From NCBI RefSeq assembly GCF_000208385.1, contig NC_015436.1, positions 372,001 to 436,000 on the forward strand: a stretch of 64,000 nt of DNA, in the 5' to 3' direction. Positions 24,268 through 32,886 of the stretch are shown in pieces. Source of the stretch: Parasphaerochaeta coccoides DSM 17374 (lineage in GTDB: Bacteria; Spirochaetota; Spirochaetia; Sphaerochaetales; Sphaerochaetaceae). The position numbers were made by a program, and so were the translations under genes. The notes under the pieces are model-generated. The model had not been told where the DNA came from. It saw only the letters and a program-made list of their open reading frames with translations, and did not search any database. Numbering within the stretch: the first letter of the stretch is position 1; every line of letters starts with the position of its first letter.

Positions 24268-25527
24268 TCAGATGCCCCTGAAAATTACGGGAAGGGTATA
24301 AAGGACAAGGATTGTCAGAACAGCCGCAATCGGGAAACCACTGGTTTTCCCTGCATGGGCGGTGATTCCGGAAGCTGCCGCCGGGCTTTCTTCCGACTCC
24401 CAGGATGCTTCGCAAAGGATGGTGTCTATTGTCTTGAGAAGCGACATGTATGTTTTCTTCCTATGGGAAGAATTGGTTTTGGAAGAATCTTTGCCGCGGG
24501 AAGTCCATCCTCCCGAAAGCTGTCCAAAATAGGAAAGCTGGGTGCTAATCAACTTTCCTGCCGTACCGGGCAGGGAAGGACGCCCACTGGTCATGTACAG
24601 GCTGACATAAATTAAAGAGACAAGGAGCATCGCCTTGCTCCATCCCTGGATAAGGGCATCACGGGTAATCTGGATGATTCCCCAGTGGAAAAGTATCTCC
24701 CCTGATGGCTGGAGGAGGCTCAGGAAAAGCATGGAGAAAACCAGCAAAAGAGGTGGCATGGGACGGAACTTGCGACCGGATGACAGGGCAAGCAGAAGGC
24801 ATGCGGCCATGGAGAGTGTCTGGACTCCCGCGTTTTGCTGGAGAAACAGGGGAGGAAGCATTGCCAGCCCCATGATGACAGGTATGATTGAGCGATTCGG
24901 TTTCCATTTCCGGTCGGTGGAAAGCTCACGGGAGTAGCGTGATGGCAGCAATCCCTCACTGTGGACGCGTGCATACCAGATGCTGGAGCGCATGAAAGCG
25001 GACGCGGCCAGTCCGACCAGAAGGGAAGTGGCCAGTCCCAGTGCGAAAAGCGGCGGGGCGACCAGCCAGATTGAAGGACCGAAAAATAACATCTGAGCCA
25101 CGGCAAGCTGGGCGATGTTGCTGGAAATAGCACCGCATATGCTGATTCCTATGGGACTGATCCATGGCTTTTTCTGCCCGCGTATCATCCAAAGAAGTCT
25201 CATCAAAGGTCCCGAAGCAAGAGTGCTGGCAGCAGATAGTGCAATCTGGAAGGAGAACAATGTGCCATTAACCAGTCCTTGCCCCAGTGTTTTCAAAAGC
25301 ATGAGCCAGAGGTAATCCTTCCATCCCAGCAAAGGCAAGCCAATGAGCAGGGGGAGATTCGCCAACCCCAGACGGAAAAAGGGGAGAGGTTTGGGAATGA
25401 GCAGTTCCAAAGAGGAGCAGAACAAAGAGATGGCCGCAAGGAAAGCGGTCAGTTCAAGACGATTTTTTGCTGTATCTTGGCCAGAAGAATCATCATGATT
25501 CATCGGCGTGGACGGTAGGGAAGTCAT
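24268..25527 (-). CDS. Gx transporter family membrane protein with extended C-terminal membrane domain
   Basis: A 419-residue polytopic membrane protein. Residues ~25-190 match the Gx / heptaprenyl-diphosphate-synthase-component-I family (PF07456), with LGLANLPLLI, GQGLVNGTLFSF and GAISSNIAQL. This family is now viewed as an ECF-type S-component-like transporter; the old enzyme name is probably wrong. Typical members are ~170 residues. Here a second membrane region (~220-330, LLLALSSG, LIQGWSKAMLLVSLIYVSLY) recalls the EcfT/CbiQ transmembrane subunit, followed by a charged tail and a final helix. That similarity is my reading, not a search result. The start ATG lies seven bases after a good -10, so the message may be leaderless. 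Confidence 0.65.
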   Translation of the reverse strand: MTSLPSTPMNHDDSSGQDTAKNRLELTAFLAAISLFCSSLELLIPKPLPFFRLGLANLPLLIGLPLLGWKDYLWLMLLKTLGQGLVNGTLFSFQIALSAASTLASGPLMRLLWMIRGQKKPWISPIGISICGAISSNIAQLAVAQMLFFGPSIWLVAPPLFALGLATSLLVGLAASAFMRSSIWYARVHSEGLLPSRYSRELSTDRKWKPNRSIIPVIMGLAMLPPLFLQQNAGVQTLSMAACLLLALSSGRKFRPMPPLLLVFSMLFLSLLQPSGEILFHWGIIQITRDALIQGWSKAMLLVSLIYVSLYMTSGRPSLPGTAGKLISTQLSYFGQLSGGWTSRGKDSSKTNSSHRKKTYMSLLKTIDTILCEASWESEESPAAASGITAHAGKTSGFPIAAVLTILVLYTLPVIFRGI

Positions 25528-25563: not shown

Positions 25564-25936
25564 TCTTCCGGTGTGCGGGGTGGTTTGCAGAGATTGCAGC
25601 AGCGGCAGCGGGCTGCGCGGGAGTAAGCCCAGGTTCTTGCGTTAAAGCAGCCGCAACGCGGACGTGACAAGGATGACAGGGGCATCGTCGGCAGACAGGT
25701 GGAAAAGAAATAGGGATAAAACGGTAGTTCAGGTGATTTGCATTGGTGGTATGTGGAGAGGAAATACACTTTTAGAAAGGGAACTTTCCTCAATATAGTC
25801 TTTTTAAAAAGATTCCGTGTAATTCATGCGAAATAAATGTATAATCAATAAAGAAGCCATGAAGAAAATGTGTCTTTGTGCGGAATGGCTTTTTCTTGGC
25901 TTGTGTACTATCGGGTATTGGGAGGATAGTTGATTC
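25564..25936. other. Intergenic region with GC-rich inverted repeats, function unknown
   Basis: About 370 bases between the divergent Gx and response regulator genes. The stretch 25590-25680 is GC-rich and can form small stems (GGGCT...AGCCC; GCGTT...AACGC). I compared it by eye with SRP RNA, tmRNA and RNase P signatures and saw none. The part from 25780 on is AT-rich and probably holds the promoter of the two-component operon. Confidence 0.35.
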
Positions 25937-26716
25937 ATGAAACAGATATATCTTGCGGATGAACAAGAGATGGATCGCCTTGGAATCCGTCAGTTCCTTG
26001 AACTTTCGGAATATAGCGTGCATGAGTTCAATGACCTGCATTCCTTGCAGTTGTCTATTTCCCGTCAGCTTCCTGACCTTTTGATCTTGGCGATTACATT
26101 CTCTGATGGTGACGGTTTTTCCTTTTTGAAGAAACTACGGGCGACATATAGTTTCCCCGTCATCTTCGTGACTTCACGCGGAGCCGAGAGCGACCGCATC
26201 CTGGGCTTTGAGCTGGGAGCCGATGACTATGTGGTCAAGCCTTTCTCCGCAAAAGAGCTGGTGCTCAGGGTGAGAGCCATATTCAGGAGGCTGGAGGGAA
26301 CGACCCAACTGAACAGGGGAGGTTCCAGCTGGGTTCTCGACGGTTCTGTCTTGTTGCTCGATGAAGTGTCCCATCTGTTTACCATTGATGGAGACCTGAT
26401 TCCCCTTACAGCCGCTGAATGGCGCATCATGAGTTATCTTGTCAGCAATGCCGGAATCCTGATAACCCGTGCGCAGGTTCTTGAAAACTGTTTTGATTAT
26501 TCATTTGAATTTTACGATAGGATAGTTGACACACATATCAAGAACATTCGTTCCAAGCTAGGAGCGTTAGGAAGCCAATGGATTGAGACCGTGCGCGGTT
26601 ACGGTTACCGTTTTGCCGGACGCCCCACGGACGGACGTCCGACTCATGGGAATGTGGAGGGCAAATCCAGTGAGGCGGCTTTCGCGAGCCACGAAGTCAT
26701 TGCCGCGCGTTCCTGA
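25937..26716 (+). CDS. OmpR-family response regulator with degenerate receiver (no phospho-acceptor Asp)
   Basis: A 259-residue protein with a receiver domain (1-120) and a winged-helix DNA-binding domain (~135-230, LTAAEWRIMSYL, VDTHIKNIRSKLG, IETVRGYGYRF). The acidic pair D8-E9, the switch threonine (FVTSRG) and the lysine (VVKPFS) are present, but the acceptor position is alanine: DLLILA(52)ITFSDGDG against DLLIQD(52)VMLPDGDG in the next gene. It therefore cannot be phosphorylated in the usual way and may act constitutively or by heterodimerising with its neighbour. A ~30-residue polar tail follows the winged helix. It is first in an operon with a second regulator and a histidine kinase. 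Confidence 0.88.
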   Translation: MKQIYLADEQEMDRLGIRQFLELSEYSVHEFNDLHSLQLSISRQLPDLLILAITFSDGDGFSFLKKLRATYSFPVIFVTSRGAESDRILGFELGADDYVVKPFSAKELVLRVRAIFRRLEGTTQLNRGGSSWVLDGSVLLLDEVSHLFTIDGDLIPLTAAEWRIMSYLVSNAGILITRAQVLENCFDYSFEFYDRIVDTHIKNIRSKLGALGSQWIETVRGYGYRFAGRPTDGRPTHGNVEGKSSEAAFASHEVIAARS

Positions 26717-26755
26717 CACGCGACAGCCGGTGATGGGTGACCAAGGAGAAAACCC

Positions 26756-27484
26756 GTGAAGATAATTTACATCGTAGAAGACCATGAGGCTATCAGGGAA
26801 GGAGTTGCAAAGTATCTCCGGATGAGTGGATATGAAACGAAGACTTTCGGGACTCTTGCCGAAGCAAAGAATGCTTTTGAAAAGATGGAACCGGATTTGC
26901 TTATCCAGGATGTCATGCTTCCGGACGGGGATGGCTTCACTTTTGTCCGCGACATACGTATGAGCAGCGACTGCCCAGTAATTTTCATGACAGCCCGCAT
27001 CACTGAAAGCGACCGTATTTTCGGCTTTGAGCTGGGAGCTGATGACTATATCACCAAGCCCTTCAGTCCCAAGGAAATGGTGCTTCGCATAGAAGCAGTC
27101 TTCAGGAGGGTGGATGCCGCATCTTCTCCTGTCGTATCATCCGTGGATGTCTCTGTCTGGATGTTGGACGGTTCAGTGATGAAAATGAATGATACCGCCC
27201 ATCAACTGTTGATTGACGGGTCAATCATCTCCTTGACGGTCGCTGAATGGAAAGTATTGGGCTATCTGGCAAGGAACGCGGGCTCGGTAGTCAGCCGGGA
27301 CATGATTATCCAGAAATGCTTCGGATACTCCACGGATTCTTACCGCAGGGTGGTGGACACCCATGTAAAGAACCTCAGAACCAAGCTGGGTGACGCCCGT
27401 GAATGGATTGAAACAGTACGCCGTTACGGATATAAGTTCATTGGTGTTCCCGCAGGTTGCAAGGACGGAACGGTGGAAGCATGA
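26756..27484 (+). CDS. OmpR-family response regulator (intact receiver)
   Basis: A 242-residue response regulator starting at a GTG with AAGGAG upstream. The receiver has E8-D9, acceptor D52 (IQDVMLPDGDGF), the threonine in FMTARI and the lysine in ITKPFS. The C-terminal winged helix has LTVAEWKVLGYLA and VDTHVKNLRTKLG. It is clearly a tandem duplicate of the preceding gene (ESDRI-GFELGADDY shared). The kinase gene starts within its stop codon (ATGA), so this is the probable phosphorylated partner. Targets are unknown. Confidence 0.92.
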   Translation: MKIIYIVEDHEAIREGVAKYLRMSGYETKTFGTLAEAKNAFEKMEPDLLIQDVMLPDGDGFTFVRDIRMSSDCPVIFMTARITESDRIFGFELGADDYITKPFSPKEMVLRIEAVFRRVDAASSPVVSSVDVSVWMLDGSVMKMNDTAHQLLIDGSIISLTVAEWKVLGYLARNAGSVVSRDMIIQKCFGYSTDSYRRVVDTHVKNLRTKLGDAREWIETVRRYGYKFIGVPAGCKDGTVEA

Positions 27485-29085
27485 AGAAGCTGTTTCTCAA
27501 GATGTTCCTGAATATCATTGGCATCATGCTTATCGTCTTGATATTCCAGTGCATCATTCTGTTTGTCGCCAATATCAGCGCGAAGGAACAATGGAAGAAG
27601 TCCGTGGTTGAGGCATATGTGGGACGTCTTCAGGAGACTTTGCTCCAGAACATGCCAGATGAAGGATGGTCTTCATCTACGATTACTTCGGCATTCATGA
27701 CTGCCAATGACGACCGGGTCAGCGGGATTCTGGTCAGTGATGCACAGGGTACTCCCCTCATGACTTTGGGCAAGGATCCACGGGGAGTCCTTCTATCTCA
27801 TCCGGACGGGCAGACGCTTGAGACAGTCAGCGTGAAATCACATGTACCTGTGTACGATGTGTACCTCACGCAACGCCAAAGCGGGTGGGCTGTGCAGATT
27901 GACGTAGAATCTGTACCGGGAAGGGCGCATTCTGGTCGGCGTGTGCCTGTGATGGTCAGGAGTGCGGATGTAGCAGGGTCGGTCATGCTTCATGTGAACG
28001 GGACGCCTTTTGTCGCGGTGGATGTCCTTACCTTCGATCCCTTTACCTATGCCCAGACTGCCAAGCTCTTTACGTCCCTGCTGGGTGTGTTTTTCTGGAC
28101 CTTGCCCTTGTCCTTGCTGATTGCCTTGGTGCTTGGCAGCATGGTCTCCCGACGCAATACCCGTTATGCTACGGAAATATCCAGTGCCTTGGGGGAGCTT
28201 GCATCAGGAAAGCATCCCATCAAGCTTCCAGCTCTCAAAGGGTCGGAGTTCATGTACATTCGAAAGGCTCTTGCTGAACTCGACAGGGAGCTGCTCCAGA
28301 ATGAAAGGACGCGCAATGCTTGGATACAGAGCATCAGCCACGACCTGAACACTCCCGTATCCGCCATGAAGTTGTTGTTGGAGGGCATCTCAGACGGAGT
28401 CTTTGCTCCGGATGCATCGACAATCTCAGCGATTTCCAATGAAAATGCTACTTTGGAGAAACGCATCAAGTCCGTCATAACGTATGCCTCGCTCCAGTCT
28501 CCTGATACCGCCCTGAACATGCAATGGATTGATGTGGATTCCTTTGTCAGGGATGTCCTGTCCGTCTTTGAAGAAAGGCAGGCGGCACGCATCACGGTCG
28601 AGTCCTATGTGACCCGTTTCACAGGTGACGCGTCTTTGGTGCGCATGGCCTGCCATGAAGTGCTGGACAATGCGTTGAAGGCTTCAGCCGCTCCCGTACT
28701 CTGGCGTTTTGAGATAGTTCCGGGAAAGAAGGTTGAAGAAAAATCCCGCAGGAAGAAAATAATCCGTGATGATTCTCCTGACCATGTCGTCCTCACGGTC
28801 ATCAATGAAGGCGAGTTGCCTGCGCAGGAGGAAGATTTCTTTGAACCATGGTCAACCGGACGAAAGGGGCGTTCCGGTCATGGAGGCAGCGGTCTTGGAC
28901 TTGCCATCACGGGAAGCATCGTCCGTCTCCACAAGGGTACTATGGTACTCAAGCAGATGAATAGCAGGGGAGAACGGCCTTACGTAGTGTTGACGCTCAG
29001 GCTGCCATTGACTCCTCCGGAAACCATGGGTATCCACAATCTGCCTGCGGTCCTTTCGGCTGTTTCATTTCCTGTTTGGGAATGA
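27481..29085 (+). CDS. Membrane sensor histidine kinase
   Basis: A 534-residue kinase from the ATG at 27481, which overlaps the regulator stop by 4 bp. N-terminal helix (~5-30), an extracytoplasmic sensor region (~31-195) of no recognised family, a second helix (~200-222), a HAMP-like linker, then the dimerisation domain with H287 in SISHDLNTPVSAMK and the ATPase domain with the N-box HEVLDNALKAS and G-boxes (WSTGRKGRSGHGGSGLGLA). A lysine/arginine-rich insert (~420-432) precedes the G-boxes. The signal sensed is unknown. Confidence 0.9.
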   Translation: MKKLFLKMFLNIIGIMLIVLIFQCIILFVANISAKEQWKKSVVEAYVGRLQETLLQNMPDEGWSSSTITSAFMTANDDRVSGILVSDAQGTPLMTLGKDPRGVLLSHPDGQTLETVSVKSHVPVYDVYLTQRQSGWAVQIDVESVPGRAHSGRRVPVMVRSADVAGSVMLHVNGTPFVAVDVLTFDPFTYAQTAKLFTSLLGVFFWTLPLSLLIALVLGSMVSRRNTRYATEISSALGELASGKHPIKLPALKGSEFMYIRKALAELDRELLQNERTRNAWIQSISHDLNTPVSAMKLLLEGISDGVFAPDASTISAISNENATLEKRIKSVITYASLQSPDTALNMQWIDVDSFVRDVLSVFEERQAARITVESYVTRFTGDASLVRMACHEVLDNALKASAAPVLWRFEIVPGKKVEEKSRRKKIIRDDSPDHVVLTVINEGELPAQEEDFFEPWSTGRKGRSGHGGSGLGLAITGSIVRLHKGTMVLKQMNSRGERPYVVLTLRLPLTPPETMGIHNLPAVLSAVSFPVWE

Positions 29086-30773: not shown

Positions 30774-32567
30774 TTATTTCTGGCTCAGTGCTAACGTGGC
30801 AGCCTGCTCACCGGCAATCTTACCGAACACCGTGATGTCAGCCACTGCGTTTCCGCCCAGACGATTGGCGCCATGGACACCACCCACAACTTCACCTGCG
30901 GCAAAAAGACCTGCTACAGGAACTCCTGAAGTATCAAGAACATGCGTCGTGGGGGTAATCTTCACACCGCCCATGGTATGATGCACGGCAGGTCCTACCT
31001 CAACAGCGTAATAGGGACCGGTTGCCAGGGAACGCGGCATTTCGTCGGCTTTACGACCAAAGTCAGGGTCAGCTCCATTGGCGACATAGCCGTTATAGGT
31101 GGTTATCGTTTCCTCAAGGGCAGCGGCAGGCATACCAAGTTTCCCGGCAAGTTCAGAAACTGTCGCCCCTTCCGTAAGAAGTCCCTGGCTATAGTATGTT
31201 TCTATGGCTTTCAGGGATTCTCTCACTCCGTGGTCAAAGAGAAGATATGCTGTCTTTCCCGTCTGTTCCAATATGGCGGAGGACATGACATCACGCGTGG
31301 CCATCTCGGAGTTGAAACGCTTGCCTTCACGATTGACCATGATAGCTCCATTTCCACGAACCGCTTCGGTAATCATCAGGTTCTGTACAGGCACGACCGT
31401 AGGATGGGTCTGAATCTGCTCCATGTCTACCAAAGCTACCGAGAAAGGTTTCACCAAATCAAAAGCATCACCCGTAGCGCCGGAGTGATTGGTAGTGCCA
31501 AAGCCTTCCAGTCCCGGTTTGAGAGAGACGAGAAGATCAGGATTGGCTCCAAAGCCGCCCGTAGCAAGAACGACAGTCGGCGCAAGGATGAGATATGTTC
31601 CGTTGGGAGCCTGGACTCTGACTCCGGCTACCGTATTAGTCCCATCCTGTGCCTTGAGGATGGTGATAACTTTGCTGTTGTACCGGATTTCCGCGCCAGA
31701 ATCCAAGGCGGATTGTACCAGGACTTCGACGAGATGTCCGCCTACAGCTGCGCCGCCGGCAGGACGATGGGTGCGGGAATTTGATGAACCGGCCATCTTG
31801 CCGACATCGGTCAGGTCAGCACCCAAGCCAAGGAGCCAATCGACAGTTTCAGCGGAATTGATGACCATGGCGTCAACCAAGGCGGGGTCGTTGATATTCT
31901 GGCCTCCCTTCATGGTGTCGTCATAGAAAGACTGGTTGGAATCCTGTATGCCCAGCTTGGCCTGTACGGAGGTTTCCGAAGCATTCAGTCCGCCTGTCGC
32001 GTAGTTCGTATTTCCTCCTGCTATCGGCATCTTCTCAAGGACAATGACCTTGGCTCCCAGAAGGGCGGCCTGGGTAGCCGCGGAAAGACCCGCGCCTCCG
32101 GCTCCAATGACTACTACATCGGCATTCGTGGTTACTGCCGCAGGGAGAGATGAGACAGGAGCCGCTTCACCTTTTGCTATGGCTATGGCGTTCTGAATGG
32201 CCGCTATGACACCCTTGGAAGTAAATGAAGCTCCGGCGACGACATCAAGGGCATCTGCTGTTCCCTTTGACTTAGCCTGATTTATGATTGTATCTACCGC
32301 GGGACGGGAGAAATCAGAATCGGAGAGTTCCAAGAGTTTTACATCAGCTATTTTTCCACCAGAGATGGATACTTGAACCTTGAGAGGACCGGCAAATCCA
32401 TTGGCTTCCCCGGTGAACGTACCGTCGGGGATAGATGAGGCCGCTGACGGGCTCGTCGTACTTCCTGCCGTTCCGGATGTTTTTCCGGAGCAACCTGCTA
32501 TCAGAGCCACGGCCATGAGGGTTGCGACAGCTATGATCATCATGGGAATGATGCGATTTTTTTTCAT
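30774..32567 (-). CDS. Exported FMN/FAD fumarate-reductase-like lipoprotein
   Basis: A 597-residue protein from the ATG at 32567 (AAGGAG nine bases upstream). Signal peptide with lipobox IAGC, a low-complexity Ser/Thr linker, then an FMN-binding domain (~40-120). That domain has VVAGASFTSKG, the kind of site at which ApbE attaches FMN to Thr/Ser. A fumarate-reductase/succinate-dehydrogenase-type flavoprotein follows (from VVVIGAGGAGLSAATQA to GGNAVADITVFGKIAG). No haem motifs. Members reduce organic acceptors such as fumarate or urocanate outside the inner membrane, taking electrons from membrane flavin carriers. No apbE or electron-delivery gene is in the window, and the substrate is unknown. 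Confidence 0.87.
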   Translation of the reverse strand: MKKNRIIPMMIIAVATLMAVALIAGCSGKTSGTAGSTTSPSAASSIPDGTFTGEANGFAGPLKVQVSISGGKIADVKLLELSDSDFSRPAVDTIINQAKSKGTADALDVVAGASFTSKGVIAAIQNAIAIAKGEAAPVSSLPAAVTTNADVVVIGAGGAGLSAATQAALLGAKVIVLEKMPIAGGNTNYATGGLNASETSVQAKLGIQDSNQSFYDDTMKGGQNINDPALVDAMVINSAETVDWLLGLGADLTDVGKMAGSSNSRTHRPAGGAAVGGHLVEVLVQSALDSGAEIRYNSKVITILKAQDGTNTVAGVRVQAPNGTYLILAPTVVLATGGFGANPDLLVSLKPGLEGFGTTNHSGATGDAFDLVKPFSVALVDMEQIQTHPTVVPVQNLMITEAVRGNGAIMVNREGKRFNSEMATRDVMSSAILEQTGKTAYLLFDHGVRESLKAIETYYSQGLLTEGATVSELAGKLGMPAAALEETITTYNGYVANGADPDFGRKADEMPRSLATGPYYAVEVGPAVHHTMGGVKITPTTHVLDTSGVPVAGLFAAGEVVGGVHGANRLGGNAVADITVFGKIAGEQAATLALSQK

Positions 32568-32886
32568 GAGAAATTTCTCCTTGTCCCTGATCAGATATTT
32601 CAATCAGGCTTCATTCTTATTGTTATCACATTATACAATGTATATTCAATATAGCCATATTTCGTTATTGACGTTTGAAGCAAAAAAGTGAAAGAAAATA
32701 AGTTTTATGAAAAATAATCAGGTTTTGTTCACATAAAAAATTCCTGGGTCAAGGATGTCTTTGTCTTGTTTCTTTTCCTTGCTTCTTTACCATGTCATGT
32801 CGGGACATATCATGCCTGTCACCATATTCATCATGGGCGCGGCGTGATATACTGGACGACATCTGAATATCAACACAGAGGATCTT

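Follow-up and report, generated by a model that had tools for sequence, protein, structure and literature searches.

A tandem pair of OmpR-type response regulators that looks like a split of labour between a pseudo-receiver and its phosphorylatable paralogue

The genome of Parasphaerochaeta coccoides DSM 17374 carries two adjacent OmpR/PhoB-type response regulator genes, here RR1 and RR2, in front of a single sensor histidine kinase gene. We analysed them within a stretch of 64,000 nucleotides (the window; Table 1). The receiver of RR1 has Ala at position 52, the place of the phospho-acceptor Asp, while the receiver of RR2 is complete, and the pair looks like a real, testable split of labour. 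Comparison of sequences shows loss of the acceptor site in RR1, its recurrence among relatives, purifying selection on RR1 and reciprocal conservation of the two proteins.

Table 1. Features of the two-regulator locus in window positions (RR1 and RR2 are given through the stop codon)
Feature	Positions	Strand	Evidence
RR1, OmpR/PhoB-type response regulator with pseudo-receiver (D8 E9 Ala52 T79 Y98 K101); ATG start, 259 aa	25937..26716	+	ORF, Pfam, alignment
RR1 codon 52, GCG, Ala replacing the phospho-acceptor Asp	26090..26092	+	sequence
RR1 winged-helix DNA-binding domain, residues 155-226, the better conserved within the pair	26399..26614	+	Pfam, identity comparison
RR2, OmpR/PhoB-type response regulator with complete receiver site (E8 D9 D52 T79 K101); GTG start, 242 aa	26756..27484	+	
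Sensor histidine kinase (HisKA, HATPase_c); likely ATG start, ATGA overlap with the RR2 stop	27481..29085	+	
Divergent PF07456 gene beside RR1, in the same place in relatives	24268..25527	-	

RR1 and RR2 share about 46% identity and align without gaps well beyond residue 60, the point up to which an earlier note on this DNA had matched them residue for residue. The note placed Ala52 (GCG) in RR1 and Asp52 in RR2 correctly. It also took the remaining receiver residues of RR1 to be intact, which holds for T79, Y98 and K101 but not for the acidic pair (D8-E9 in RR1 versus E8-D9 in RR2), nor for positions D+4 and T+1, where Ser56 replaces Pro and Ser80 replaces Ala. Thus RR2 has all residues of a canonical phosphorylatable receiver (acidic pair, acceptor Asp, Thr/Ser and Lys), whereas RR1 departs from this set by Ala52. 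Pseudo-receivers are described as receivers by sequence that are devoid of one or more of five key residues (PMC12548384, PMC12632262), and RR1, with its Pfam receiver match and Ala52, falls under this definition as an aspartate-less receiver. Both domains lie above the Pfam cut-offs in both proteins, with E values for Response_reg of 6e-19 (68.6 bits) in RR1 and 3e-27 in RR2 and for Trans_reg_C of 2e-19 (70.1 bits) and 3e-21, respectively, which bears out the view that both DNA-binding domains look intact. The one kinase said to follow the regulators is there, with an H-box (ISHDLNTP), an N box and a G box.

The predicted structure of RR1 (mean pLDDT 88.9) agrees with the OmpR/PhoB-type assignment, showing complete receiver and DNA-binding folds and an uncertain linker and C-terminal tail. 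Its fold matches are OmpR-type regulators such as KdpE, PrrA and RpaA, with HP1043 (2hqr) at rank 41, and comparison of its receiver with that of an activated YycF homologue gave a TM of 0.95. Reading an active or inactive state from the model was rejected, as both activated and other receivers match. Several relatives share a TGTG-centred block upstream of RR1, and the window DNA at about 25840-25900 can be aligned with it; this stretch is a possible operator.

Among 139 whole genomes searched in the window's family, 127 matched an RR1 profile at E <= 1e-40, the matches including RR2-type proteins, and stretches were read from 120 of these (left out: G081, G095, G126, G135, G138, G139 and G157). 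Residue 52 was readable in 42 RR1 copies, each from a different genome. It is not Asp in 32 of them (26 Glu, 3 Ser, 2 Ala and 1 Cys) and Asp in 10; many copies come from close relatives, so the counts do not stand for separate events. A 70-row tree requires at least four changes between Asp and non-Asp and nine changes of letter at this position. The second Ala52 copy is found in a different genus (G067). RR2-type regulators, a group that takes in the kinase-linked regulators of genomes without RR1, have Asp52 without exception (113/113), and all 69 rows of the first residue table also have E8, D9, T79 and K101. Single-copy RR1-like regulators of other genera have Asp52 in six of six readable cases. 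The residue-52 counts exclude an RR1-like fragment missing its N terminus (G003), a fragment with residue 52 unread (G098) and a remnant of 96 aa (G061); L041 and L250, apparently one contig, were counted once. The first copies of two g10 pairs (L170, L171), both with Asp52, fell into neither group of the first tree and were not counted as RR1; with them the figure becomes 32/44. Unlinked RR1 copies may have been missed where only the kinase locus was fetched.

Relatives with the same operon carry RR1 versions ED/D, DD/D, DG/D, DG/E, DP/E and DE/A (acidic pair/residue 52). All 31 non-Asp52 copies with a readable residue 9 are also without Asp9, six copies are without Asp9 yet have Asp52, and the four with Asp9 all have Asp52. 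Residue 9 thus seems to have been lost before residue 52. The RR1 proteins of these four genomes (G020, G124, G004 and G023), whose acidic pair ends in Asp, may still be phosphorylated. One close pair of genomes differs at RR1 residue 52, with Glu in G127 and Asp in G022. Since GCG is one base from the Glu codon GAG, a step from Asp to Glu and on to Ala would be a short path. The relatives thus provide a natural series in which the roles of the acceptor and of the metal acid can be tested, and in which one can ask whether a competent partner replaces both.

For eight RR1 pairs with a whole-gene dS below 1, dN/dS ranged from 0.005 to 0.104, which by sequence indicates purifying selection. The two proteins were compared in 13 non-redundant genomes out of 24 with both genes (leaving out G142, whose RR2 is a fragment, and G132 and G140, with no RR2 on the fetched stretch). 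Regions were taken from the known receiver fold; they were fixed ahead of the bootstrap, when the identities had already been inspected once. Mean identity in RR1 and RR2, respectively, was 0.69 and 0.96 for the active-site shell, 0.58 and 0.75 for alpha1, the segment that normally docks the kinase, 0.85 and 0.66 for the DNA-binding domain, and 0.87 and 0.90 for the alpha4-beta5-alpha5 dimer face. Column bootstraps of the difference excluded zero for the shell, alpha1 and the DNA-binding domain but not for the dimer face, and the identities change little without the window sequence. By this pattern RR1 and RR2 have specialised reciprocally, RR2 keeping the active-site shell, RR1 the DNA-binding domain and both the dimer face. 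In a control with 17 of 80 pattern-found loci and two other regulators of the same genome, the dimer face was nearly as similar in unrelated OmpR-family regulators, so its conservation is not specific for a heterodimer; the comparison is biased, because the pattern used to find the 17 loci lies within the face itself.

Within the window, the DNA-binding domain is 0.81 identical to its orthologues in RR1 and 0.51 in RR2. The window RR2 sits on a long branch (0.95 versus a median of 0.22 in the 70-row tree), and its recognition helix carries Arg at a position that is Asp or Glu in most relatives (YRRVVDTH versus YDRIVDTH or YERVVDTH). Because of the branch and this Arg, it may recognise DNA with a specificity unlike that of its relatives.

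The window's sister genera and several g15, g12 and g17 genomes show the same gene order, in which the divergent PF07456 gene, a transporter gene, is followed by RR1, RR2 and the kinase. In the 70-row tree most RR1 copies, including that of the window, form one clade (98/93) and RR2 copies another (98/95), while the RR1 copies of G020 and G014 lie outside the RR1 clade. A quick 121-row tree separates the g12, g15 and g17 RR1 copies from the RR1 of the window and of its sister genera. As several branches are long and some RR1 copies are placed apart, we are unsure of the date of the duplication and of whether it was a single event. Near the PF07456 gene, window positions 30774-32603 encode a predicted flavoprotein (FMN_bind and FAD_binding_2) with a lipoprotein-like start.

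Our explanation, which we hold with some confidence as a whole, is that RR1 and RR2 arose long ago by tandem duplication of a regulator gene preceding a single kinase gene, and then would have divided the work. RR2 would have kept the phosphoryl switch and receive the kinase signal. RR1 would have lost the switch, apparently the second metal-binding acid first and then Asp52, and retained T79, Y98 and K101 together with its fold, its dimer face and a DNA-binding domain better conserved than that of RR2; by its sequence it should dimerise and read DNA. We infer that RR1 is unphosphorylated, that it binds DNA without phosphate, and that it is coupled to the kinase via RR2, so that its output would follow the kinase only through RR2. 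In the CmrRST system, the E53A exchange in CmrT had little effect while D9A and K102A had an effect (PMC12548384). Because CmrT tolerates this exchange and RR1 keeps D8 and K101, Ala52 need not abolish RR1 function. Against the split count the 10 of 42 RR1 copies that keep Asp52 and the RR1 copies of some genomes that are not linked to the kinase (L172, L196 and L200), an arrangement for which RR2 is not required. For the coupling, heterodimers of RR1 with phosphorylated RR2 are our most likely candidate, tentatively put forward. The earlier note had already proposed such a partnership: family-wide loss of D52 in RR1 only backs a phosphorylation-independent partner, and the heterodimer itself is compatible with a dimer face that is kept in both proteins but is not specific. 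In its fullest form, with RR2 as phosphoryl switch, RR1 as the main source of DNA specificity, the heterodimer as active species, and sister genomes in which the stages of the change survive (both regulators competent, then the metal acid lost, then the acceptor Asp lost as well), the scheme is possible but less likely than not.

Alternatively, coupling could run through dosage. RR1 would then be a constitutive homodimer, and phosphorylated RR2 would set only its dose via the operon promoter. The operon layout and the occurrence of unlinked RR1 copies fit this arrangement, which has been put forward as one model for CmrRST (PMC12632262). On the other hand, Ala52 has no charge to mimic a phosphate, and neither a direct-repeat scan nor an alignment of the DNA upstream of RR1 established a convincing operator. 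We regard dosage as quite possible, and the sequences do not separate it from heterodimers. The altered receiver might instead sense another input, such as a ligand, redox state or another kinase; RitR (5u8m), a streptococcal redox sensor derived from a receiver, is among the fold matches of RR1. This idea has a slim chance, as no conserved new site was seen and residue 52 is free to be Asp, Glu, Ser, Ala or Cys. Still slimmer is the chance that RR1 acts as a decoy, binding the kinase and thereby lowering phosphotransfer to RR2, one sense that could be given to the constitutive competitor of the earlier note. The receiver fold predicted to be kept and the position of the gene next to RR2 and the kinase would suit a decoy, whereas the lower conservation of alpha1 and of the active-site shell, the kinase side of RR1, beside a DNA-binding domain that is its best kept part, disfavours it, as do the unlinked copies.

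That RR1 is merely a decaying spare copy is very improbable in view of the low dN/dS, a DNA-binding domain better conserved than that of RR2, and long open frames in nearly all RR1 copies; a few do look damaged, one spread over two frames (L231) and one short, with Cys52 and Ser at position 101 (L192). The split in L231 (positions 1177-1864, the RR1 of G089) involves two overlapping frames and is likely a frameshift or an assembly error. An error or strain-specific change behind Ala52 is hardly credible. The earlier note would have drawn this conclusion from orthologues with Asp52. Such orthologues exist, the RR1 of the nearest relative G020 among them, and the genomes searched included no second one of the window's genus (g1), but the inference is contradicted by 31 RR1 copies besides that of the window without Asp52, and E9, Ser56 and Ser80 are changed as well. 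Furthermore, two bases must change to turn either Asp codon into GCG, and the genome forms one contig of 2,227,296 bases, so one wrong base call cannot explain Ala52. Judged by these sequences, Ala52 is not a sequencing error, and the arrangement recurs across the family.

The closest known case is CmrRST of Clostridioides difficile, which resembles the window in architecture and substitution pattern; its order of regulator, kinase, regulator, given by the operon name, is unlike that of the window. Both loci have one kinase with two OmpR-family regulators, one competent and one with a pseudo-receiver, in CmrRST within one operon (PMC12548384) and in the window adjacent to each other. CmrT, with Asp-Gly, Glu53, T80 and K102, has the same pattern as the DG/E copies of the sister genomes (PMC12548384), while the window RR1 differs by Ala52 and Glu9. 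When the RR1 receiver was matched to solved structures, the CmrT receiver (2qzj) came no higher than about rank 58, so close common descent is not indicated. BldM and WhiI of Streptomyces are likewise atypical regulators acting as a heterodimer (PMC4125116, PMC12632262), but they are described as not co-transcribed (PMC12548384), and neither belongs to a plain pairing of a competent with a pseudo copy next to a single kinase. HP1043 and ChxR share with RR1 an OmpR-type fold in which Asp phosphorylation is reported not to be used; HP1043 has been described as an orphan, whereas RR1 belongs to a kinase operon and has a competent paralogue next to it. In AtvR of Pseudomonas aeruginosa, as in RR1, the changes are limited to the acceptor and a single acid of the pair, in AtvR with Asp to Glu (PMC12548384), but AtvR belongs to the NarL family, and the account given there mentions no tandem competent twin. 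No earlier description of the present operon appeared in the titles or abstract openings found in the open-licence PMC literature. A recent review calls it still a mystery how bacterial pseudo-receivers are turned on and off (PMC12632262).

RR1-type genes and related pairs also occur in other surroundings. Two g10 genomes have a tandem pair whose receivers are both complete (L170, L171) and, at another locus, one more copy linked to a kinase (L212, L213); the kinase of L171 is followed by efflux-pump genes. Two g12 genomes have an unlinked RR1-type regulator with Ser52 (L172, 3001-3702; L196, 2495-3196) that adjoins an AcrB-type pump gene, the pump gene being in two frames in L172 and one open frame in L196. 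In a g17 genome (G112; L200, 2714-3406 and 4791-5525) an outer-membrane efflux gene has near it a regulator with a complete receiver and, on the other strand from that regulator, an unlinked Glu52 RR1-type regulator. The neighbours of the unlinked copies give no more than a lead towards an envelope or efflux role.
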